Source: a virus. From it: a DNA stretch of 43,759 bases. Shown here piece by piece: positions 2,128 through 34,100 of the stretch (its first letter is position 1; the number at the start of each line of letters is the position of its first letter). The notes beneath the pieces were generated by a model. It was not told where the DNA came from and ran no database searches. It saw nothing but the letters and a program-made list of their open reading frames with translations. Made by a program: the position numbers and the translations under genes. The stretch lies in IMG/VR virus record IMGVR_UViG_3300036828_000483, positions 1 through 43,759 of that record, one strand, 5' to 3'.

Positions 2128-2939
2128 CCAAATTCATTCCACCCATCAAAAGAGTTCAGCGCAAAAATTATCATATTTACCAGGACGGTGAAGGCCGTCA
2201 AATGCCGGGTGCCACCACCATTCTCGGCGCAGGCATCCCCAAACCAAACTTCGTAACCTGGGCCGCGAATGCCACCGCAGAAGCCGCCGTCAACCGCTGG
2301 GACGAACTCAGCGACCTTCCTGTAGCTGCTCGCCTCAAGATCTTGCAAGGAGCCCGCTACGAAACCACCAACGCCGCCAAAAACAAAGGCACACAGGTAC
2401 ATGCCTACGCCGAAAAACTCGTTCGAGGCGAAGAGATCCAAGGCGTCCCTGACCTACTGCGCCCCTACACCGAAAACTACGTCCGCTTCATCGACGAATG
2501 GCAACTGGACCCGATCCTCGTAGAAGTCGTGGTCGTGAGCTACACCCACGGTTACGCTGGAACATTGGATCTTGTCGCCGAAATCACCACCCCCGCAGGC
2601 GAACGTGAAACATGGCTCTTCGACGTGAAGACAGGAGAAAAAGGCGTTTACGCCGAGACTGCCCTACAACTAGCCGCATACCGCTACAGCGAATTTTATG
2701 TCGACAACGACGGCAACGAACAACCGATGATCCCCGTAGAAGCCTGCGGCGCAATACATGTCACCGCCGACGACGCTGTCCTGATTCCCACCGTCAGTGG
2801 CCCAGAACAACACAGAATGTTCCGCATCGCCCAAAAAGTTTACGAATACGACAAGGAAAGCGACGGTCTGATCCTGCCCGCGCTGCTGCACCCCAATCAC
2901 AGCACCGCCCGCATCGTCTGGAAGGACCGAGACCAGTGA
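2124..2939 (+). CDS. RecB/Cas4-like exonuclease, PD-(D/E)XK family
   Basis: The start is ATG 2124 (ATGA overlap); a longer frame from 2049 lies inside the upstream gene and is rejected. The 271-residue protein shows the PD-(D/E)XK nuclease core: D149 in GTLDLV, D167-V-K169 in FDVKTG, then the QLAAYR motif near residue 183 typical of RecB-like and Cas4-like nucleases. These degrade double-stranded ends to make 3' tails. The next gene encodes a RecT-like annealing protein, so the two probably form an exonuclease/recombinase pair like Exo/Beta or RecE/RecT. Confidence 0.85.
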   Translation: MTKFIPPIKRVQRKNYHIYQDGEGRQMPGATTILGAGIPKPNFVTWAANATAEAAVNRWDELSDLPVAARLKILQGARYETTNAAKNKGTQVHAYAEKLVRGEEIQGVPDLLRPYTENYVRFIDEWQLDPILVEVVVVSYTHGYAGTLDLVAEITTPAGERETWLFDVKTGEKGVYAETALQLAAYRYSEFYVDNDGNEQPMIPVEACGAIHVTADDAVLIPTVSGPEQHRMFRIAQKVYEYDKESDGLILPALLHPNHSTARIVWKDRDQ

Positions 2940-4090
2940 CTGACCTCGCCCGCACCGGCCAATACAACACCTGGGTTGACGAAACCAGCCCCACCCCAGC
3001 GTTTCTCACCCAGCGCGACCCGACCCAACGCCTCCGCGACTGGGTCGACCTCTTCCGCGAAGTCGTCAAAGCCGCCGAATTCCTAAGCAAAACCCCGTTC
3101 GTACCAAGGGAGATGACGGGGAAGGCCGCCGACGTCGCCGCCTGCATCATGAAAGGCCACGAACTCGGCATGGACCCACTCGACGCCCTCGCCAACATCT
3201 TCGTCATCAACGGCCGCGTCGGAATGTACGCAGAATTCATGCGCCGCCGCATCATCCAAGCCGGCCACACCTTCCGTATCGTCGAGTCCACCGATAACCG
3301 CTGCGTCGTCGAAGGCACCCGCAAAGACGGCGGTGAACCACAACGGGCCAGCTTCACCAACGAACAAGCCCGCCGCGCCGGCATCGACCTCGGCCGCTAC
3401 CCCGCAGACAAACTCGTAGCCCGCGCCACCAGCCGACTCTGCCGCCAAGTATTCCCCGACGTCCTCTCCGGCACCCTCATCGCCGAAGACCTCATCGACG
3501 GACTCATCCCCACCGACGAACCCGTAGCGCCCGCAGAAACCCAACCCACCCCCGAACGCCCGGCACTCAAACGCGCCCGCAAACCACGCACACCCAAAGC
3601 CACCAACACCCAAGCACCCACCACAACAGCTGTCGATGACACGGACGACCTCCTCGACGACACCACCCCACAAACCCCCGCTGCCGGACAATCCACGGCG
3701 CCGCCCGACGCGCCGCCGGCAGCGGGCCAAACCCTCGACGCCAAAACAGAAACCGACATATTCGCCATCGCCGACGCCCTCGCCGACCCACCCATCGACA
3801 CACCACCCGAACTCCCCGCCCGACCCCAACAAAACAGGATGATGCACGCCCTATTCAGAGAACTCGCCATCGACAACCGCGACGACCGCCTCACCATCAC
3901 GTCACATATCCTCGGCTACCCCATCACCACCAGCACCGGCATCACCATCCACGAAGCCTCCCGCATCATCGACCAACTCCAAACCTGGCGCTGGCGCGAT
4001 GTAGACGCCGCCAGCACCATCCGCGACATCTTCTACGAAGCCACCATCGCCGAAGCCGAAAACCAAGACGACCTGCAAACAGAGGAGTAG
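2936..4090 (+). CDS. RecT-like single-strand annealing recombinase
   Basis: Starts at GTG 2936, overlapping the exonuclease stop (GTGA), and encodes 384 residues. The N-terminal 190 residues show RecT-family features: [35 protein letters not shown], where GMDPLDAL and the NGRVGMYAE strand are diagnostic, followed by [21 protein letters not shown]. Residues about 200-290 are a Pro/Thr/Ala-rich linker. The last 90 residues form a separate helical domain of unknown role. It should coat and anneal single-stranded DNA made by the neighbouring nuclease. Confidence 0.85.
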
Positions 4091-4092
4091 CA

Positions 4093-4956
4093 GTGACCAA
4101 TCCCGCACAGGGCGTCCTATTCGACATCGAAGAATACGTGCTCATCGACAAGCGCATAGACGGCTGCGAGTCCACGGCGATACAAGAACGTTGGGAATTC
4201 GGCCGCATGATGAACAGTGAACGCGTCGACGAACCAGATAAACGGGGCCGCCCCCGCGAAGGCAATCAGTTACCCAAGGGGTTCCTCGATGAACTTGAAG
4301 CAGCGACCGGCAAGAGCCGTTGGGAACTCCAAATGCGGGCTCGCTTTGCTGAACGCTATCCAACGGAAGCCAAAATGCGTGACGCTGTCACACACTTTGG
4401 TTCCTGGCGTGAGATCACACACAATCTGGCCGAAGACGGCGATGACAGCGACGGCGCGCACGTCGGCAACAACAGCGGCGACAATGAATGGTACACACCA
4501 CCCGAATACATCGAAGCCGCGCACGCCGTCATGGGCGGCATCGATCTCGACCCCGCATCCCACCCCGACGCCAACGACATCATCGGCGCCGCAACCATTT
4601 ACACTGCCAAAGACAATGGACTAACCCAACCCTGGCACGGCCGCGTATGGATGAACCCCCCCTACGCCCAACCACTCATCGACCAATTCTGCACAAAACT
4701 CGTCGACGAATACTCCAACCAATCAGTCACCGCCGCCTGCGTCCTCGTCAACAACGCCACCGAAACCAACTGGTTCCAAACCATCGCACGAACCGCCGCC
4801 ACAATCTGCTTCCCCCAAAGCCGCATCAGATTCTGGCACCCCAACAAATCCTCAGCAACACCACTGCAAGGCCAAGCGATTCTCTATCTCGGCCAAGACA
4901 CAACCAGATTCCGCGACAACTTCGCAACCTTCGGATTCGTCCTCAACAGCGAATAA
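4093..4956 (+). CDS. Phage N6-adenine DNA methyltransferase (Dam-like)
   Basis: Starts at GTG 4093 after GAGGAG and encodes 287 residues. The C-terminal half matches the phage Dam family: [18 protein letters not shown], then GIDLDPAS (cofactor-binding part), then VWMNPPY at residues 185-191, whose NPPY is the catalytic motif of N6-adenine methyltransferases. The N-terminal 110 residues ([13 protein letters not shown] and a helical segment) look like a separate DNA-binding or specificity part. It may protect phage DNA from host restriction or regulate gene expression. No cognate restriction enzyme is seen. Confidence 0.88.
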
Positions 4957-4958
4957 CA

Positions 4959-5390
4959 ATGGCGGACATTCGAGACTGGGGAAAATTCCTACGAGGTCGC
5001 TGGGACTGGACCAGCGGAGGATACGAAACCGGGTTTCCACGCGGCTGCCAATTCACAGACCTAGATGCCGCCATCGAATTCGACGGTCGCGCCCTCGATA
5101 TCGAAACTAAACACCACGACGGCGAAGAGGGCGAATTTCCACAAATATCCTGGGGACAATTACGCTTCCTCCGCAATGAAGTCCAATTAGGTAAAACGGC
5201 GATCATCCTTTTCGGCTGTGGCCCCTGCAACGACCCGCAGGGCGTCTGGGTACTAGCACCGGGCATGGTCGACCGCAAAGAAGACTGGCGCGGACGACCA
5301 AAAGACGAACGGCGCAAACTACTCAAATACGAAATTGACAAAGCGATGGGATTAGCCTCCCCAGCTGATGGCCCGGGATTGGTGCGATGA
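4959..5390 (+). CDS. Hypothetical protein, possible PD-(D/E)XK nuclease
   Basis: Starts at ATG 4959, two bases after the methyltransferase stop, and encodes 143 residues. The segment DLDAAIEFDGRALDIETKH has D...E-x-K spacing compatible with a PD-(D/E)XK nuclease core. GEFPQISWGQLRFLRNE and WVLAPG follow. I do not recognise a named family and the catalytic reading is inference. Its location in the recombination and replication block fits a small nuclease or replication accessory factor. Confidence 0.65.
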   Translation: MADIRDWGKFLRGRWDWTSGGYETGFPRGCQFTDLDAAIEFDGRALDIETKHHDGEEGEFPQISWGQLRFLRNEVQLGKTAIILFGCGPCNDPQGVWVLAPGMVDRKEDWRGRPKDERRKLLKYEIDKAMGLASPADGPGLVR

Positions 5391-5394
5391 CGTA

Positions 5395-6039
5395 ATGGTG
5401 TGGTTCCTTGTGGATGACAATCTGACCTTCCACGGCAAGACCGTGGAAGCCGGTAACGCCGCCATGGGACTCTGGGTGAGAGCCGGATCCTGGTCCGCCG
5501 CGACCCTCAGTGACGGGTTCATTCCAGTCGATGTCGCACGCAGACTCGCTCGAAAACGCGACGCCGATCGGCTGGTTTCTGGCGGACTTTGGGCGGAAGT
5601 TCGGCAGGATTCTGGCGGACTTTCGGCGGACTTTCGGCGGACTTCTGGCGGCCCGACCCGCCAGTTAATCGGGTATCAGTTCCATGAATGGGAGCAAACG
5701 CAACAGAGCAAAAGCGAGGTTGAACAGCGTCGGAAGTGGGAACGCGAACGCAAGGCTGAGCAACGCAGGCGACGATGTCCCACTGGGACAAAGGACGATG
5801 TCCCGGTGGGAGTCCCCGGGCGTACGCGCGCGTTACCCAAGCCAAGCCAACCAGTAGTTACTACTGGTGGCTTGGCTCACCAACGCAACGCGACCCGACG
5901 CGACCCCCCTCCGGGCCGCGTCGTCGAAATCGAAGAATCCCCGCCACCCACCGAAAACCGCACCGAATACATCAACGCCGCCCAAAACGGAATGCCACAA
6001 ATCCGCGCCGCACTCACCAGAAAACCCCAACCCCTATGA
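5395..6039 (+). CDS. Replication-initiator-like phage protein with internal 11-bp repeat array
   Basis: I prefer ATG 5395, because related proteins begin with a WF-x-VDD element (here MVWFLVDDNLTFHGKT). ATG 5368 is an alternative that would overlap the upstream gene by 23 bases. The order WFLVDD, GNAAMGLWVRAGSWSA, TLSDGFIP, then GYQFHEWEQ and a basic helix (RRKWERERKAEQRRRR) matches a family common in actinophages near replication genes. It is thought to be a winged-helix replication initiator or loader. The gene contains seven 11-bp direct repeats (5581-5651) encoding GGLWAEVRQDS/GGLSADFRRTS. The C-terminal third is low-complexity. Confidence 0.75.
   Translation: MVWFLVDDNLTFHGKTVEAGNAAMGLWVRAGSWSAATLSDGFIPVDVARRLARKRDADRLVSGGLWAEVRQDSGGLSADFRRTSGGPTRQLIGYQFHEWEQTQQSKSEVEQRRKWERERKAEQRRRRCPTGTKDDVPVGVPGRTRALPKPSQPVVTTGGLAHQRNATRRDPPPGRVVEIEESPPPTENRTEYINAAQNGMPQIRAALTRKPQPL
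5581..5651 (+). repeat. Seven-unit 11-bp direct repeat array inside the initiator-like gene
   Basis: The core GGCGG (once GGCAG) recurs at 5581, 5592, 5603, 5614, 5625, 5636 and 5647, exactly 11 bases apart. Units 1, 4, 5 and 6 read GGCGGACTT plus two bases; units 2 and 3 are diverged. The peptide repeats every 11 residues because three units (33 bp) restore the frame. Repeats at helical-turn spacing within an initiator gene look like iterons, as in lambda, where the origin lies inside gene O. Confidence 0.85.
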
Positions 6040-6470
6040 CCCGCACCCGGAAATCCGCCAAAACACTCGGCGCCACCTTCGAACGCCAACTCGCCGACTA
6101 CCTCAATGCCGAATTGGATGACCGAATAGACCGACGCATCCGCTACGGCATCAAAGACCGCGGCGACGTCAGCGGCGTCCGCACCGTTCACGGCCGACGC
6201 CTCGTCCTCGAAGCCAAAAACGTCACCCACGAAACCTGCACCAAATGCAAACGCATCAGCGGCCTCAAACTGTCCGAATGGTTGGCCGAAGCCGATATCG
6301 AAGCGGGAAACGACGACGCATTGCTCGGCGTCGTCGTTCATAAACGGCGCGGCACGACGGATCCCGGCCGCCAATTCGTCACAATGACCGTCGACGACCT
6401 ATGCGCATTAATCGACGGCCAACGACACGGACATCGCGCCGACATCCTCGACGACGGGAAAACCGCATGA
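6036..6470 (+). CDS. Holliday-junction-resolvase-like PD-(D/E)XK nuclease
   Basis: The start ATG 6036 overlaps the upstream stop (ATGA), and the product is 144 residues. The pattern GATFERQLADYLNAEL, DRRIRYGIKDRGDVSGV, RRLVLEAKN fits small actinophage resolvase-like nucleases: an acidic residue in the first helix, GD in the loop, then E-x-K (EAKN) near residue 67. A CTKC pair follows. It would cut branched DNA during recombination or before packaging. The neighbours (RecT, exonuclease, initiator) fit. The exact subfamily is uncertain. Confidence 0.75.
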   Translation: MTRTRKSAKTLGATFERQLADYLNAELDDRIDRRIRYGIKDRGDVSGVRTVHGRRLVLEAKNVTHETCTKCKRISGLKLSEWLAEADIEAGNDDALLGVVVHKRRGTTDPGRQFVTMTVDDLCALIDGQRHGHRADILDDGKTA

Positions 6471-8609: not shown

Positions 8610-8628
8610 CCGTTGGAACCATCCCGGC

Positions 8629-8708
8629 GGGTACCTACCCTCCCGCTGACCATGGTTTGCGGGGTACCTACCCTCCGCGGCACCCTCCTTTGCGGGTACC
8701 CACCCTCC
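8629..8708 (+). repeat. Three GGGTACC-YACCCTCC boxes at 32-33 bp spacing
   Basis: Copies begin at 8629, 8662 and 8694. Each reads GGGTACC(T/C)ACCCTCC, and the last two are preceded by TTTGC. The spacing of 33 and 32 bp places the boxes on the same DNA face (three helical turns). The core GGTACC is itself palindromic, so this looks like a protein-binding array. Confidence 0.8.
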
Positions 8709-8716
8709 GCCGGCAT

Positions 8717-9108
8717 GTTTGCTGAGGGTCACCATCCGTGCATGGTCACCATCTGTGCAGGTCACCGCGCTATCGCCCAGCAAACAATGCAACCCTCCAG
8801 CAAACAAGGTGACCATCCCAGCAAAGGGGGTATGGGGTTGCAAAGTCTGTGGGTTCCCTACGATCCTCCGGGAGCCTCCTCATCTTTTTACCCCCTTTAC
8901 AGAAACGTAGTCCGTTTAAAACGCCTCTGACCTGCATGTTTGTAGCGAAACTGGTGGATAGTCCGTTTATCAAGATCAAAACACGTCTAAACCAGCTATG
9001 GCGGACGCCCCTCTCGCACCAGCCAGCAAAGCTACAGCAAACATGACAACCAGCCAGCAAACTAGCAGTTAAGCCCTTTGACCTGCCGTTTTGTCGTAAA
9101 GTTTGCTG
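8717..9108. repeat. Dispersed CAGCAAAC octamer family
   Basis: CAGCAAAC occurs at 8778, 8798, 9035 and 9055. The variant CAGCAAAG occurs at 8819 and 9024. The inverted form GTTTGCTG occurs at 8717 and 9101. Inverted copies flank direct copies, allowing large hairpins. The same octamer forms the stem of the hairpin after the capsid gene (16739-16785). Confidence 0.75.
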
Positions 9109-9888: not shown

Positions 9889-10573
9889 GTTCGCGCATGA
9901 GCCAGGCGCGGCCGTCGCCGCAGTGGTAGTAGCCGAGTAGGTGTTTGTTGCGGTTGATGTCGCGGTCCCAGCCGGGGGTGTCGGCTTTGGCGTTGATGTA
10001 GCGGTGGGCGTTGGTGTTGTGTTCGAAGGCGTAGAGGTGTCCGGGTAGGCGTCTGACGTGGGATAGGGTGCGGGCGATCATGGTGAAGGCGACGTCTTCG
10101 TGTCCCCAGCCGATGAATTCGGGGGGTTGGCCGCCGAGGCGCCACCATTCTTTTTGGGTGGTGATGATGCAGCCGCCGACGCCGGCGATGCCGTCGCCGT
10201 CCCAGGTGTTGACGTAGGGGACGTGGGCTAGCTGTTCGATGGGGGTGTTGAGGTAGGTGTTGGTGAGGATGCGGTATTTGGTGAATGGCCACCAGACGCC
10301 GGCTGGGTCGGCAACTGCGGTGAGGATGTTTTGTGGGTCGATGAGGGTGTCGGCGTCGGCGACGATGACAACGTCGGTTGTCGCTTGGGTGACGGCGTTG
10401 TTGCGGGCCTGAGCCAGGGAGAAGATTTCGGTGTCGCTGTCGGCGGTGATGATGGGCCAGCCGAAGCCGGGCCAGAAGTCCATGACGCGGTTGAAGGCGG
10501 GGATTCGGGATGGGCTGGGCCGCCAGGGGATGCAGACGGTGGCGGGGACGTTATTGGGCCATTTGAGGGTCAT
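9746..10573 (-). CDS. Glycosyltransferase (GT-A fold, family-2/7-like)
   Basis: A leftward gene of 275 residues starting at ATG 10573. It shows ATVCIPWRPSPSRIPAFNRV, SLAQARNNAV, a DADT metal-binding motif (VIVADADTLID) near residue 75, then IAGVGGCIITTQKEWWRLGG and FIGWGHEDVAFTMIAR, the galactosyltransferase-type acceptor motif (GWGxED). It should transfer a sugar from a nucleotide donor. In mycobacteriophages, glycosyltransferases of this class can decorate capsid or tail proteins. The final 45 residues are low-complexity and coincide with the antisense zinc gene, so the functional domain probably ends near residue 228. Confidence 0.88.
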   Translation of the reverse strand: MTLKWPNNVPATVCIPWRPSPSRIPAFNRVMDFWPGFGWPIITADSDTEIFSLAQARNNAVTQATTDVVIVADADTLIDPQNILTAVADPAGVWWPFTKYRILTNTYLNTPIEQLAHVPYVNTWDGDGIAGVGGCIITTQKEWWRLGGQPPEFIGWGHEDVAFTMIARTLSHVRRLPGHLYAFEHNTNAHRYINAKADTPGWDRDINRNKHLLGYYHCGDGRAWLMRELIAQRPEPSHNAHTDTHPAQTHADNPILTVATPAAPYSPDTDTAPTR

Positions 10574-10681
10574 ATCGGGTCATTTTGGGGCCTTTAAGGG
10601 GCAAATCGGGGCATTTCCGGGTGTTTTCGGGGCGATGATAGTGACCGTGTCAAGCACTTTGCGGGTTGGCGTGTCGGTTGT

Positions 10682-10717: not shown

Positions 10718-10984
10718 ATGACTCGACGTAAACCGCGCCCGGCTGATCCTGCTCAGTTGTATCCGGACCGGTTGGAGGCGTTGATCGCGGCGGTGTGGTC
10801 GGATGCGATGGCGGGGGAGCGCCAAGCGGTGGAAGTCTGTCGGCGGGTGTTGGCTCAGCAGGCGAAGTTTTATGGTCTGGATGCTGAGGCTGGGGCGGTG
10901 CCGCCGATCACGGATCAGCAGCTGGCGGCTGATGATGATGAGCTGGCCAGCTATCGGGCCCGGTTTGCGCGTAAAGACGCCTGA
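10718..10984 (+). CDS. Terminase small subunit
   Basis: The start at ATG 10718 is the first ATG after the promoter-like block; an in-frame upstream extension to 10685 is rejected because it overlaps the promoter. The 88-residue protein (LYPDRLEALIAAVWSDAMAGERQAVEVCRRVLAQQAKFYGLD) matches the short helical small-terminase type placed just before TerL in actinophages. The C-terminal acidic tail ends with ASYRARFARKDA. It overlaps TerL by one base (TGATG). It would recognise the packaging site and regulate TerL. No separate HTH is evident. Confidence 0.78.
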   Translation: MTRRKPRPADPAQLYPDRLEALIAAVWSDAMAGERQAVEVCRRVLAQQAKFYGLDAEAGAVPPITDQQLAADDDELASYRARFARKDA

Positions 10985-31136: not shown

Positions 31137-34100
31137 ATGCCCGGGGCGATAGACCTGTTCGCCGGTTCCAACTCCATCGGCGGCTCCAACCTTTTCACCG
31201 TCAACAAAAACCCGCTGAATCAAATCGACCAGGGCATCGAAGACGTCCTCGGCCAGCACGGACAAAACGTGGGCCAGTCGATCTGGGACGCCATCCAAAC
31301 CCTGATCGACTCCATCCTGGGCATCAATCCCAACGGCCCGCTGCACGGCTTGATGACCGACATCACCAACATGCTGGAAAACCTGTGGACATTCCTGGGT
31401 GAACTCAACCCGCTAGACCCCAACTTCGACCCGATCGCCGCGATCATCACCTTCATCGAAGACATGCTGAAACCGTCCAATTTGTTGGCGGTGCTGGTCA
31501 AAGACGCCACCCAATCCGGCGGAGTCACCGGCCTGATCCCATTAGAGAATCTGGCGTTGGATCTGATCGAAGGGGCCATCGGCGGAGTCCAAAATCTGAT
31601 TGATGCGATCATGGCCGCATTCGGATTTGGCCCCGGCACCGCCAGCTACACCGAAGTCAACAAACTGTTCTCCGACCTCTACGCCTTCTTGGGGAATCCG
31701 TCGGGCTGGGCTACCGACCTGTTCGACGCCGCCGAATCGATCGTCAACTTCATTACCACGATGCTGCATCCGACGAATCTGCTCGCACCGTTGGAGCAAC
31801 TGCTGGCGGGTGTGTTCACCATCCCCCCGATCAACATCGGCGGCCTGGACGCCTCCAAAATCGTTTCCGGCCAGTTCGCGTACAACATGATTTTGGGGTT
31901 GGAGACGGCGGTGTCGGCGTTGCCGTCGTGGCTGATCCCGTTCATCCCGGTGTCGGCGATCGGGGCGGGCAGCCCGAATCTGATCCCGAACCCCAACTAT
32001 GCGGGCGCGACCTCGGTCAACGACCCGTCGGGGCGGTTCACCTGGGATGCGGCCGTGGATCACACCGGGGATGGCAGCGGCTCGGCGATGGTGCACGGGA
32101 CCGGGGTGTCCACGTCGCTGGTGTCGCAGGCCACCATCCCGGTCGCGGCGGGACAGCAGGCGGCGCTGTCGCACTGGCTGCAATGGGCAGGAATAAGCGC
32201 CAGCCCCGCCGAGGCGTTCATCCTATCCTTGTTGACGTACAGCGGCACCAAGCTGTTGACGCAAAACGATGTCGCCTCGATCAGCGGCCCGGGCGCGTCG
32301 GCGGGCTGGACACAACTGTCCGGGTCCTACACCATCCCGGCCGGGGTGGATGGGGTGCGGGTACTGCTGACGGTCACCTCAGGGGTGAACGGCGGCACGA
32401 TTCATTGGGATGACGCTTCCCTGACCGAAACCAACACCCTGGATCAGGGTTTGGTCACCGGGTTGGTGGGTGATTTGTCGAATCTGCTGTCCCAGATCAG
32501 CGCCCGCGCGTTGATCACCGACTTCGACAATCTGTTGAACACACTGGGGTTGGGTAATCCGACGCTGACGGCGATCACCACCCGGCTGGCGAATCTGACC
32601 GGCGCGGGTGGTTTCGACGCGGCGCAATTATTCAATCTGCCCAACATCCCGCAACTGCTGGCGACCTCGGTGGCCGGGATCGGTGGCCTACCCAATATTG
32701 GGGCGTCGCTGCAGAAAACCTGGGACAGCATCGCCGCCGCCGGCACCGGGCTCGGCTCCATCCCGGCGATCATCGCCCGGCTAGGTGCAATCGGCAGCAC
32801 CGGACTTTTGGACGCCTCCCAGTTGTCCAACATCGTCAACATCCCGCAGTTGCTGTCGACGAGTATCGCCGGGATCGGCGGGCTGCCCAATATCGGGGCT
32901 TCGCTGCAACAAACCTGGGACAACGTCGCGGGCGCCGCTTTGGGCGGGGGCACCCTCGCGAAAATCAACACCCGGCTCACGGGGTTGGCCGGTAACGGCG
33001 CGTTCAACGCCGCGCTCCTGTCCAACATCGCCAACATCCCGCAACTGTTGGCGGCGTCGGTCGCCGGAATCGGGGGGCTACCCAACATCGGCGCGTCCCT
33101 GCAACAAACCTGGGACGCCGTCGCGAACATGACCGCCGGGACGGGCACCCTGGCCGCCGTCATCACCCGGCTGGCCGGACTCGCGGCTAACGGCCTATTC
33201 GACGCCTCCCAACTCACCAACATCACCAATATCCCTCAACTGTTGGCGGCCAGCGTCGCCGGGATCGGCGGCGCCACCAACATCGGCGCCTCCGTCCAAT
33301 CGTTGATCGACCAGGCGTTCCAAGCCTCCTTCGGCGGAACCTCCACCGGCAACCCGCTGACCTCGTTTCTGACGGCGCTCACCCAGTTCCCGCACCAAAA
33401 CGTGGTCGGCGTCCTCGGCCCCGGCCAAATCGGGCAATCCCTGAACTCCACCGTCGACAGCATCTACCAAGGCTGGACGGCCAGCGGCCTGACCGGCGTC
33501 AGCCTGGGCCAATTGAGCAACGCCGCCACCCAGATCGCCAACAACATCCTGCACGCCCTGAACATCGGCACCACCAACTCGGGTTTCATCGCCAACCGGG
33601 CGACCAGCAAACCATCATTCATGTCGATCGACCCCACCGCCGACAGTGTGTTCAACCTGGCCAACATCACCGGAACCACAGCGACCACGGTGCCGGTGAC
33701 CTCATCCACCAGCGTCATCGGGATGATCGGCACCCCCGACGCCGGCATCAAACAATCCGTCGCCTGGCTGGGCTACGGCACCACCAACATCACCGCCATG
33801 AATCTGAACCTGTATCAGGTCAACACCTCGACCGGCGCGCTGACATTCATGTATCAGTCGCCCAACATCGTCAGCACAGTCGGGTCCGGCGCCGCACCAT
33901 CCTGGAACTACTACCAGCTGCCCGCCAGCGCCTATCTCAGCACCGTGCAAGGCAACTGGTACGCCGTCGAAATGGTGGTCACCGGCACCGGCACCTACAA
34001 CATCGTCGGCGTCACCAATAGCTGGATGCCGCCACACCCCACCGCGTTCCCCAGCAAGCTCGGCGCGTCCCGCGCCACCGGCCTAGCAACACCCACCTTT

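Follow-up and report, generated by a model that had tools for sequence, protein, structure and literature searches.

The window analyzed here, a stretch of 43,759 nucleotides corresponding to positions 1 to 43,759 of IMG/VR virus record IMGVR_UViG_3300036828_000483, represents a virus with terminase, portal, protease, capsid and tail genes. It also contains a replication-initiator gene, termed rep in what follows, in this context:

2049-2939: gene for an exonuclease
2612-4090: gene for a RecT-like protein
4093-4956: gene for a Dam methylase
5398-6039, + strand: rep, a replication-initiator gene of family phrog_2447, encoding 213 amino acids from a GTG start at 5398 (assigned by hmmscan, homologue starts and an AlphaFold2 model)
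5775-6470: gene for a PDDEXK/RusA-like protein

A preliminary description of this DNA had taken rep for a replication-initiator homologue, and the profile search bears this out: residues 1-160 of the product, comprising the N-terminal domain, match phrog_2447 ('replication initiation protein') with an hmmscan E value of 4.5e-38. The N termini of the homologues begin with M-x-W-F-x-V-D-D. Homologues were present in 143 phage records, chiefly from phages of Gordonia, Mycobacterium, Streptomyces and Propionibacterium, and some are annotated as 'RepA-like replication initiator' or 'replication initiation protein'; going by annotation, the gene product would initiate replication of the phage. Scans of viral and genome contigs with the single protein found no rep relative, and the relatives in viral contigs were retrieved with an alignment query. 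An AlphaFold2 model built with 65 sequences features a confident N-terminal winged helix (pLDDT 92-98 over residues 1-70) with wing strands at residues 65-70 and 90-95, a long helix at 105-126, a region of low confidence extending to residue 187 and then a C-terminal helix. Foldseek matched the predicted winged helix to actinophage HTH proteins and, weakly, to PDB entries, and no credible match by sequence or fold was found among solved structures.

Within the codons of this winged helix lies a tandem repeat with a period of one helical turn:

5570-5651, + strand: 11-bp array, with units at 5570 (weak), 5581, 5592, 5603, 5614, 5625 and 5636, a partial unit at 5647 and a 33-bp higher-order period
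5645-5664, + strand: perfect 7-bp inverted repeat CTGGCGG-CCCGAC-CCGCCAG (arms 5645-5651 and 5658-5664, by direct reading), which closes the array
5590-5682, + strand: codons for wing strand 1 (residues 65-70), the array-encoded wing loop (71-89) and wing strand 2 (90-95), from the AlphaFold2 secondary structure

Direct reading of the window places GGCGG at 5581, 5592, 5614, 5625, 5636 and 5647 and GGCAG at 5603—the seven repeats spaced by 11 bp that had been reported initially—and adds a weak unit, GGCTGGTTTCT, at 5570. Tandem Repeats Finder, run on the window, returned a period of 11 for 5576-5644 and a higher-scoring period of 33 for 5568-5651. The period-11 score of the array is 31, against a top score of 14 among 20 shuffled whole windows and 5.8 ± 2.5 in synonymous-codon shuffles of rep, with 0 of 2000 such shuffles reaching the observed value. 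Because the unit is translated in all three reading frames, the array is a DNA repeat and no by-product of a peptide repeat; the neighbouring units at 5614 and 5625 are identical despite being out of frame. Units 0-2 coincide with the codons of a conserved family motif, (D/R)LVxxGLWxEV (RLVSGGLWAEV in the window), which suggests that conserved coding sequence may have been duplicated to form the array, with some of the growth in steps of 33 bp that leave the frame unchanged. No Rfam match was found at 5300-6100. A mobile element or shared motif as the source of the 11-bp unit was considered and rejected, as a degenerate pattern occurred in 8 viral contigs against 5 for the reversed control, and the 46 genome stretches that matched came from unrelated taxa, with none of the matching loci encoding a rep relative.

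In the model, the array is predicted to encode, within the N-terminal winged helix, the last part of wing strand 1 together with the wing loop, with a pLDDT of 65-74 for the loop; the insert carrying it preserves the reading frame. Wing-loop length varies in the family, with a median of 4 residues across the 66 homologous genes in which it could be measured, and a loop longer than 17 residues was found among them in only one homologue (L055), whose insert likewise has an 11-bp period. Persistence of an 11-bp array at this place in related phages is not supported: L055 is the only one of the 66 measurable genes with a comparable wing array, and the usual place for repeats in the family is the linker downstream.

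Repeats of several other types occur in the window. Three short families are stacked at 8620-8830, after an HNH gene—a GCGGGTACCTACCCTCC type with 33-bp spacing, a GGTCACCATCYGTGCA type and a CCAGCAAACAA type. Repeats of 10-11 bp, of the GGGNCATTTNNG type, occupy 10545-10640 upstream of the terminase gene at 10984, and a 195-bp tandem repeat spans 32641-33293 in the gene for a 1402-residue minor tail protein.

To place the array in a family context, we assembled 78 non-redundant rep genes from the window, IMG/VR contigs and 14 phage records after removal of near-copies. Repeats with a period that is not a multiple of 3 exceeded all synonymous shuffles in 56 of the 78, as opposed to 4 of 160 neighbouring control genes, and in 44 of the 78 rep genes the highest significant out-of-frame score belonged to the 5-bp period. 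These 5-bp arrays (CCCGA, CCAAC, TCCCT, CCACT and others, the unit varying between lineages) are found at about codons 125-155. A four-G-tract motif on the opposite strand was present in 58/78 rep genes where synonymous shuffles predict 26.7, the corresponding figures for the controls being 9 and 9.7. Repeats 5' of the 5-bp array are spaced by 11-12 bp, with autocorrelation peaks at 11, 12, 22, 23 and 24 bp, and are built on the core words GTWAC, GTSAC, GTCCC, TTCG, TGGCAA or GAAGCA. At least three copies of one core word occurred in 59 of 78 linkers vs 21 of 629 control stretches, a contrast that is partly post hoc because the word list was compiled after inspecting the linkers; neither the shuffle test nor the prophage set described below is post hoc. 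The core type tracks the winged-helix tree, with 33 changes vs 49.4 in shuffled assignments (0/200). A hairpin after the 5-bp array was significant in 21 of 56 family genes, and we hence dropped the notion of a universal element and speak of many members; other relatives, several of them near the window, have a CTAGTGGTTACGTAGGGGGG-like stretch after the 5-bp array in place of the hairpin.

The word ATGGCAA recurs in two or three frames of one gene in L004, L039, L051, L081, L083 and L096 and is nearly confined to that gene. Its copies encode MANAMAN in the helix-turn-helix and are read in other frames in the linker—one DNA word yielding different peptides. In L037, a GTACCC tandem with a period of 6 encodes PVPVPVPV at about codons 132-154, replacing the linker 5-bp array. 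Further 11-bp arrays were found in L064, L084, L091, L164 and L166. A check on prophages, which constitute a set not used before, recovered a homologue in 21 of 395 genomes from a single actinobacterial class; out-of-frame repeats unreached by any synonymous shuffle were present in 11 of the 19 distinct prophage genes tested, and these included arrays of 11 or 22 bp in L157, L162, L163, L164 and L166. We also observed that the frame of the prophage homologues L162, L163, L164 and L166 runs into a Cys/His HNH-like stretch, and that their 11- or 22-bp arrays, of GATCC type, are located far downstream of the winged helix.

The linker of the window contains the counterparts of these family elements:

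5776-5958, + strand: codons for a low-confidence, probably disordered linker (about residues 127-187; pLDDT 54-63 in the blocks covering 131-190), the usual repeat site of the family
5776-5816, + strand: linker iteron-like sites GTCCC 5777, GGGAC 5785, GTCCC 5800 and GTCCC 5812, with the palindrome TGTCCCACTGGGACA at 5776-5790
5837-5852, + strand: degenerate 5-bp array CCAAG CCAAG CCAAC C, encoding PKPSQP (synonymous-shuffle p 0.013)
5845-5872, + strand: hairpin after the 5-bp array, with the core ACCAGTAGT-T-ACTACTGGT at 5850-5868

The four GTCCC/GGGAC sites, weak copies of the TGTCCC-type sites of the clade, compare with 1.55 expected from synonymous shuffles (p 0.034); in the linkers of L018-L023, the clade of the window, no words are more strongly enriched than GGACA/GGGAC. 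The hairpin has a DNA folding energy of -10.9 kcal/mol (z -3.4; synonymous-shuffle p 0.021). The linker thus carries weak forms of all three clade elements between 5777 and 5872, each of them weak when taken alone (p 0.01-0.03). The 11-bp array lacks the linker core of the clade, and the nearest relatives show no special enrichment of its words in their linkers (the best, AGTCC, ranks 23rd of 224). By eye, CGGACT in L019 had made it plausible that the relatives' linker iterons share a core with the wing array; this found no support, with all array words ranking 23rd or lower of the 224. Because other words outrank the array unit in these linkers, binding of the array by the product of its own gene is considered putative. 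The window is, in sum, a weak canonical module accompanied by a strong unusual one.

Initiator genes with an origin in their own coding sequence are known from other phages. In the O gene of phage lambda (ori-lambda), and in the Stx phages P27 and 933W, iterons lie within the initiator gene, and their number varies between phages and alters the length of the protein; Stx phages with 6 iterons have 13 extra residues in O (PMC7466680). The rep gene resembles these systems in having iteron-like repeats inside an initiator gene, and differs from lambda in the spacing of the repeats (11-12 bp in the window and the family), in the placement of the array in wing codons, in the protein family, and in having a C-rich 5-bp array and a hairpin instead of an AT-rich unwinding stretch. 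The replisome organizer of SPP1 binds direct repeats within its own gene (gene 38, oriL; PMC6316719); SPP1 has a second origin and, in contrast to the window, where none was seen, an AT-rich unwinding element. Among the lactococcal P335 phages, the replisome organizers ORF13 of TP901-1 and Rep2009 of Tuc2009 bind direct-repeat-rich regions in their own genes, which serve as ori (PMC8965321); the hosts differ from those of the rep family, and the likeness drawn here is one of layout. Among actinophages, an origin within or beside repA was inferred for the extrachromosomal mycobacterial prophages Miko, Rachaly and Jeeves, with lambda as the model and no repeated motifs reported (PMC7157519). Their RepA proteins comprise 320-350 residues with a predicted HTH at 95-132, whereas the window protein has an N-terminal winged helix.

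Two features of a lambda-type origin were compared with the window and its family. Helically spaced repeats that the protein does not explain are present in the window and across the family, as the synonymous shuffles indicate. An AT-rich unwinding stretch beside the iterons was not found, with AT content at or below 50% per 40 bp across rep, next to the array and the linker alike, and we do not class the element as a lambda-type origin for this reason; judged by analogy, it may still work like one. The original parallel with lambda O therefore survives for the helical-turn repeats, which are family-wide, and fails for the 11-bp array itself, which is not conserved at its place.

On these grounds, and given the phrog_2447 match of a gene that neighbours those for an exonuclease, a RecT-like protein, a Dam methylase and a RusA-like protein, our preferred reading—for which we see the chances as evenly balanced—is that this actinophage initiator gene carries a replication origin in its own coding sequence, which would work much as in lambda O, SPP1 gene 38 or TP901-1 ORF13, with the 11-bp array as an accessory, lineage-specific iteron-like block. 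In the proposed mechanism, the winged helix of the initiator would bind short iterons one helical turn apart, mostly in the DNA encoding the disordered linker. Binding would open or mark the DNA beside the C-rich 5-bp array (G-rich on the opposite strand) and, in many members, the hairpin as well, and the helicase would be loaded there. In the window phage, the linker copy is degenerate, and a strong extra 11-bp array would have grown from the RLVSGGLWAEV codons into the wing loop. This wing array, whose units the initiator or a host protein may bind, would most likely provide that embedded origin with a further helically phased binding block.

The main rival to an embedded origin that includes the array holds that the 11-bp units arose by tandem duplication, are tolerated by the wing loop and do nothing at the DNA level, so that an intragenic origin, if there is one, would consist of the linker module only. 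We take this explanation seriously, yet find it rather doubtful overall. It would account for the first units falling on conserved RLVSGGLWAEV codons, for the in-frame 33-bp period outscoring that of 11 bp, for array words unlike the linker core of the clade, and for an insert at a site where length varies in the family; tandem 11-bp GGCGGA arrays in unrelated DNA are, moreover, about as frequent as the reversed control (the 8 vs 5 viral contigs given above). It sits poorly with the out-of-frame identity of the units at 5614 and 5625 and a score far above the synonymous shuffles, and with the 11-bp period shared by the two longest measurable wing inserts, those of the window and L055, and by linker arrays of the family. 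Selection on the protein, with the array encoding an extended, Arg-containing wing that alters DNA recognition, fits the position of the array on the modeled wing loop. We deem it very improbable, given a loop pLDDT of just 65-74 and given that peptide repeats alone do not produce the out-of-frame DNA identity that none of the 2000 synonymous shuffles matched.

Operators for autoregulation, or sites for some DNA transaction other than an origin, could also explain the repeats in both the family and the window, for helically phased repeats within the gene of a DNA-binding protein fit repression or looping too. Against this stands the layout, with iterons and a structured element in an initiator gene as in the experimentally established origins of lambda, SPP1 and TP901-1 (PMC7466680, PMC6316719, PMC8965321), and we rate such a role as improbable. 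On/off variation of the gene by gain or loss of single units, which the preliminary description had raised, has in its favour that 11 is not divisible by 3: adding or losing a unit brings a stop codon less than about 35 bases past the array, the other two frames ending at about 5666 and 5685. Such a stop would destroy a probably essential initiator, halting phage replication, and should be lethal; the insert is in frame, its top-scoring period is 33 bp, and no variants were seen in the single record. A phase-variable switch is thus scarcely credible.

Extended from the window to its relatives, the embedded-origin reading describes a large actinophage initiator family with a modular origin in its own coding sequence, composed of helical-turn iterons, a G-quadruplex-prone 5-bp array and often a hairpin, in which the words change by lineage and the layout stays. 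The iteron blocks in winged-helix codons (in the ATGGCAA group, L055 and the window) would then turn the codons of the DNA-binding domain into extra binding sites. We advance this generalization tentatively, at slightly less than an even chance. Our limited literature search, in which absence is no proof, found no mapped origin for the phrog_2447 family, nor, within its scope, mapped origins for most actinophages. A repeat layout recognisable in one annotated initiator family would allow the origins of many phages and prophages to be predicted in testable form. Embedded origins of this kind would yield minimal replicons for actinobacterial vectors, and they would represent single stretches of DNA that code for both a protein and, in several reading frames, binding sites.
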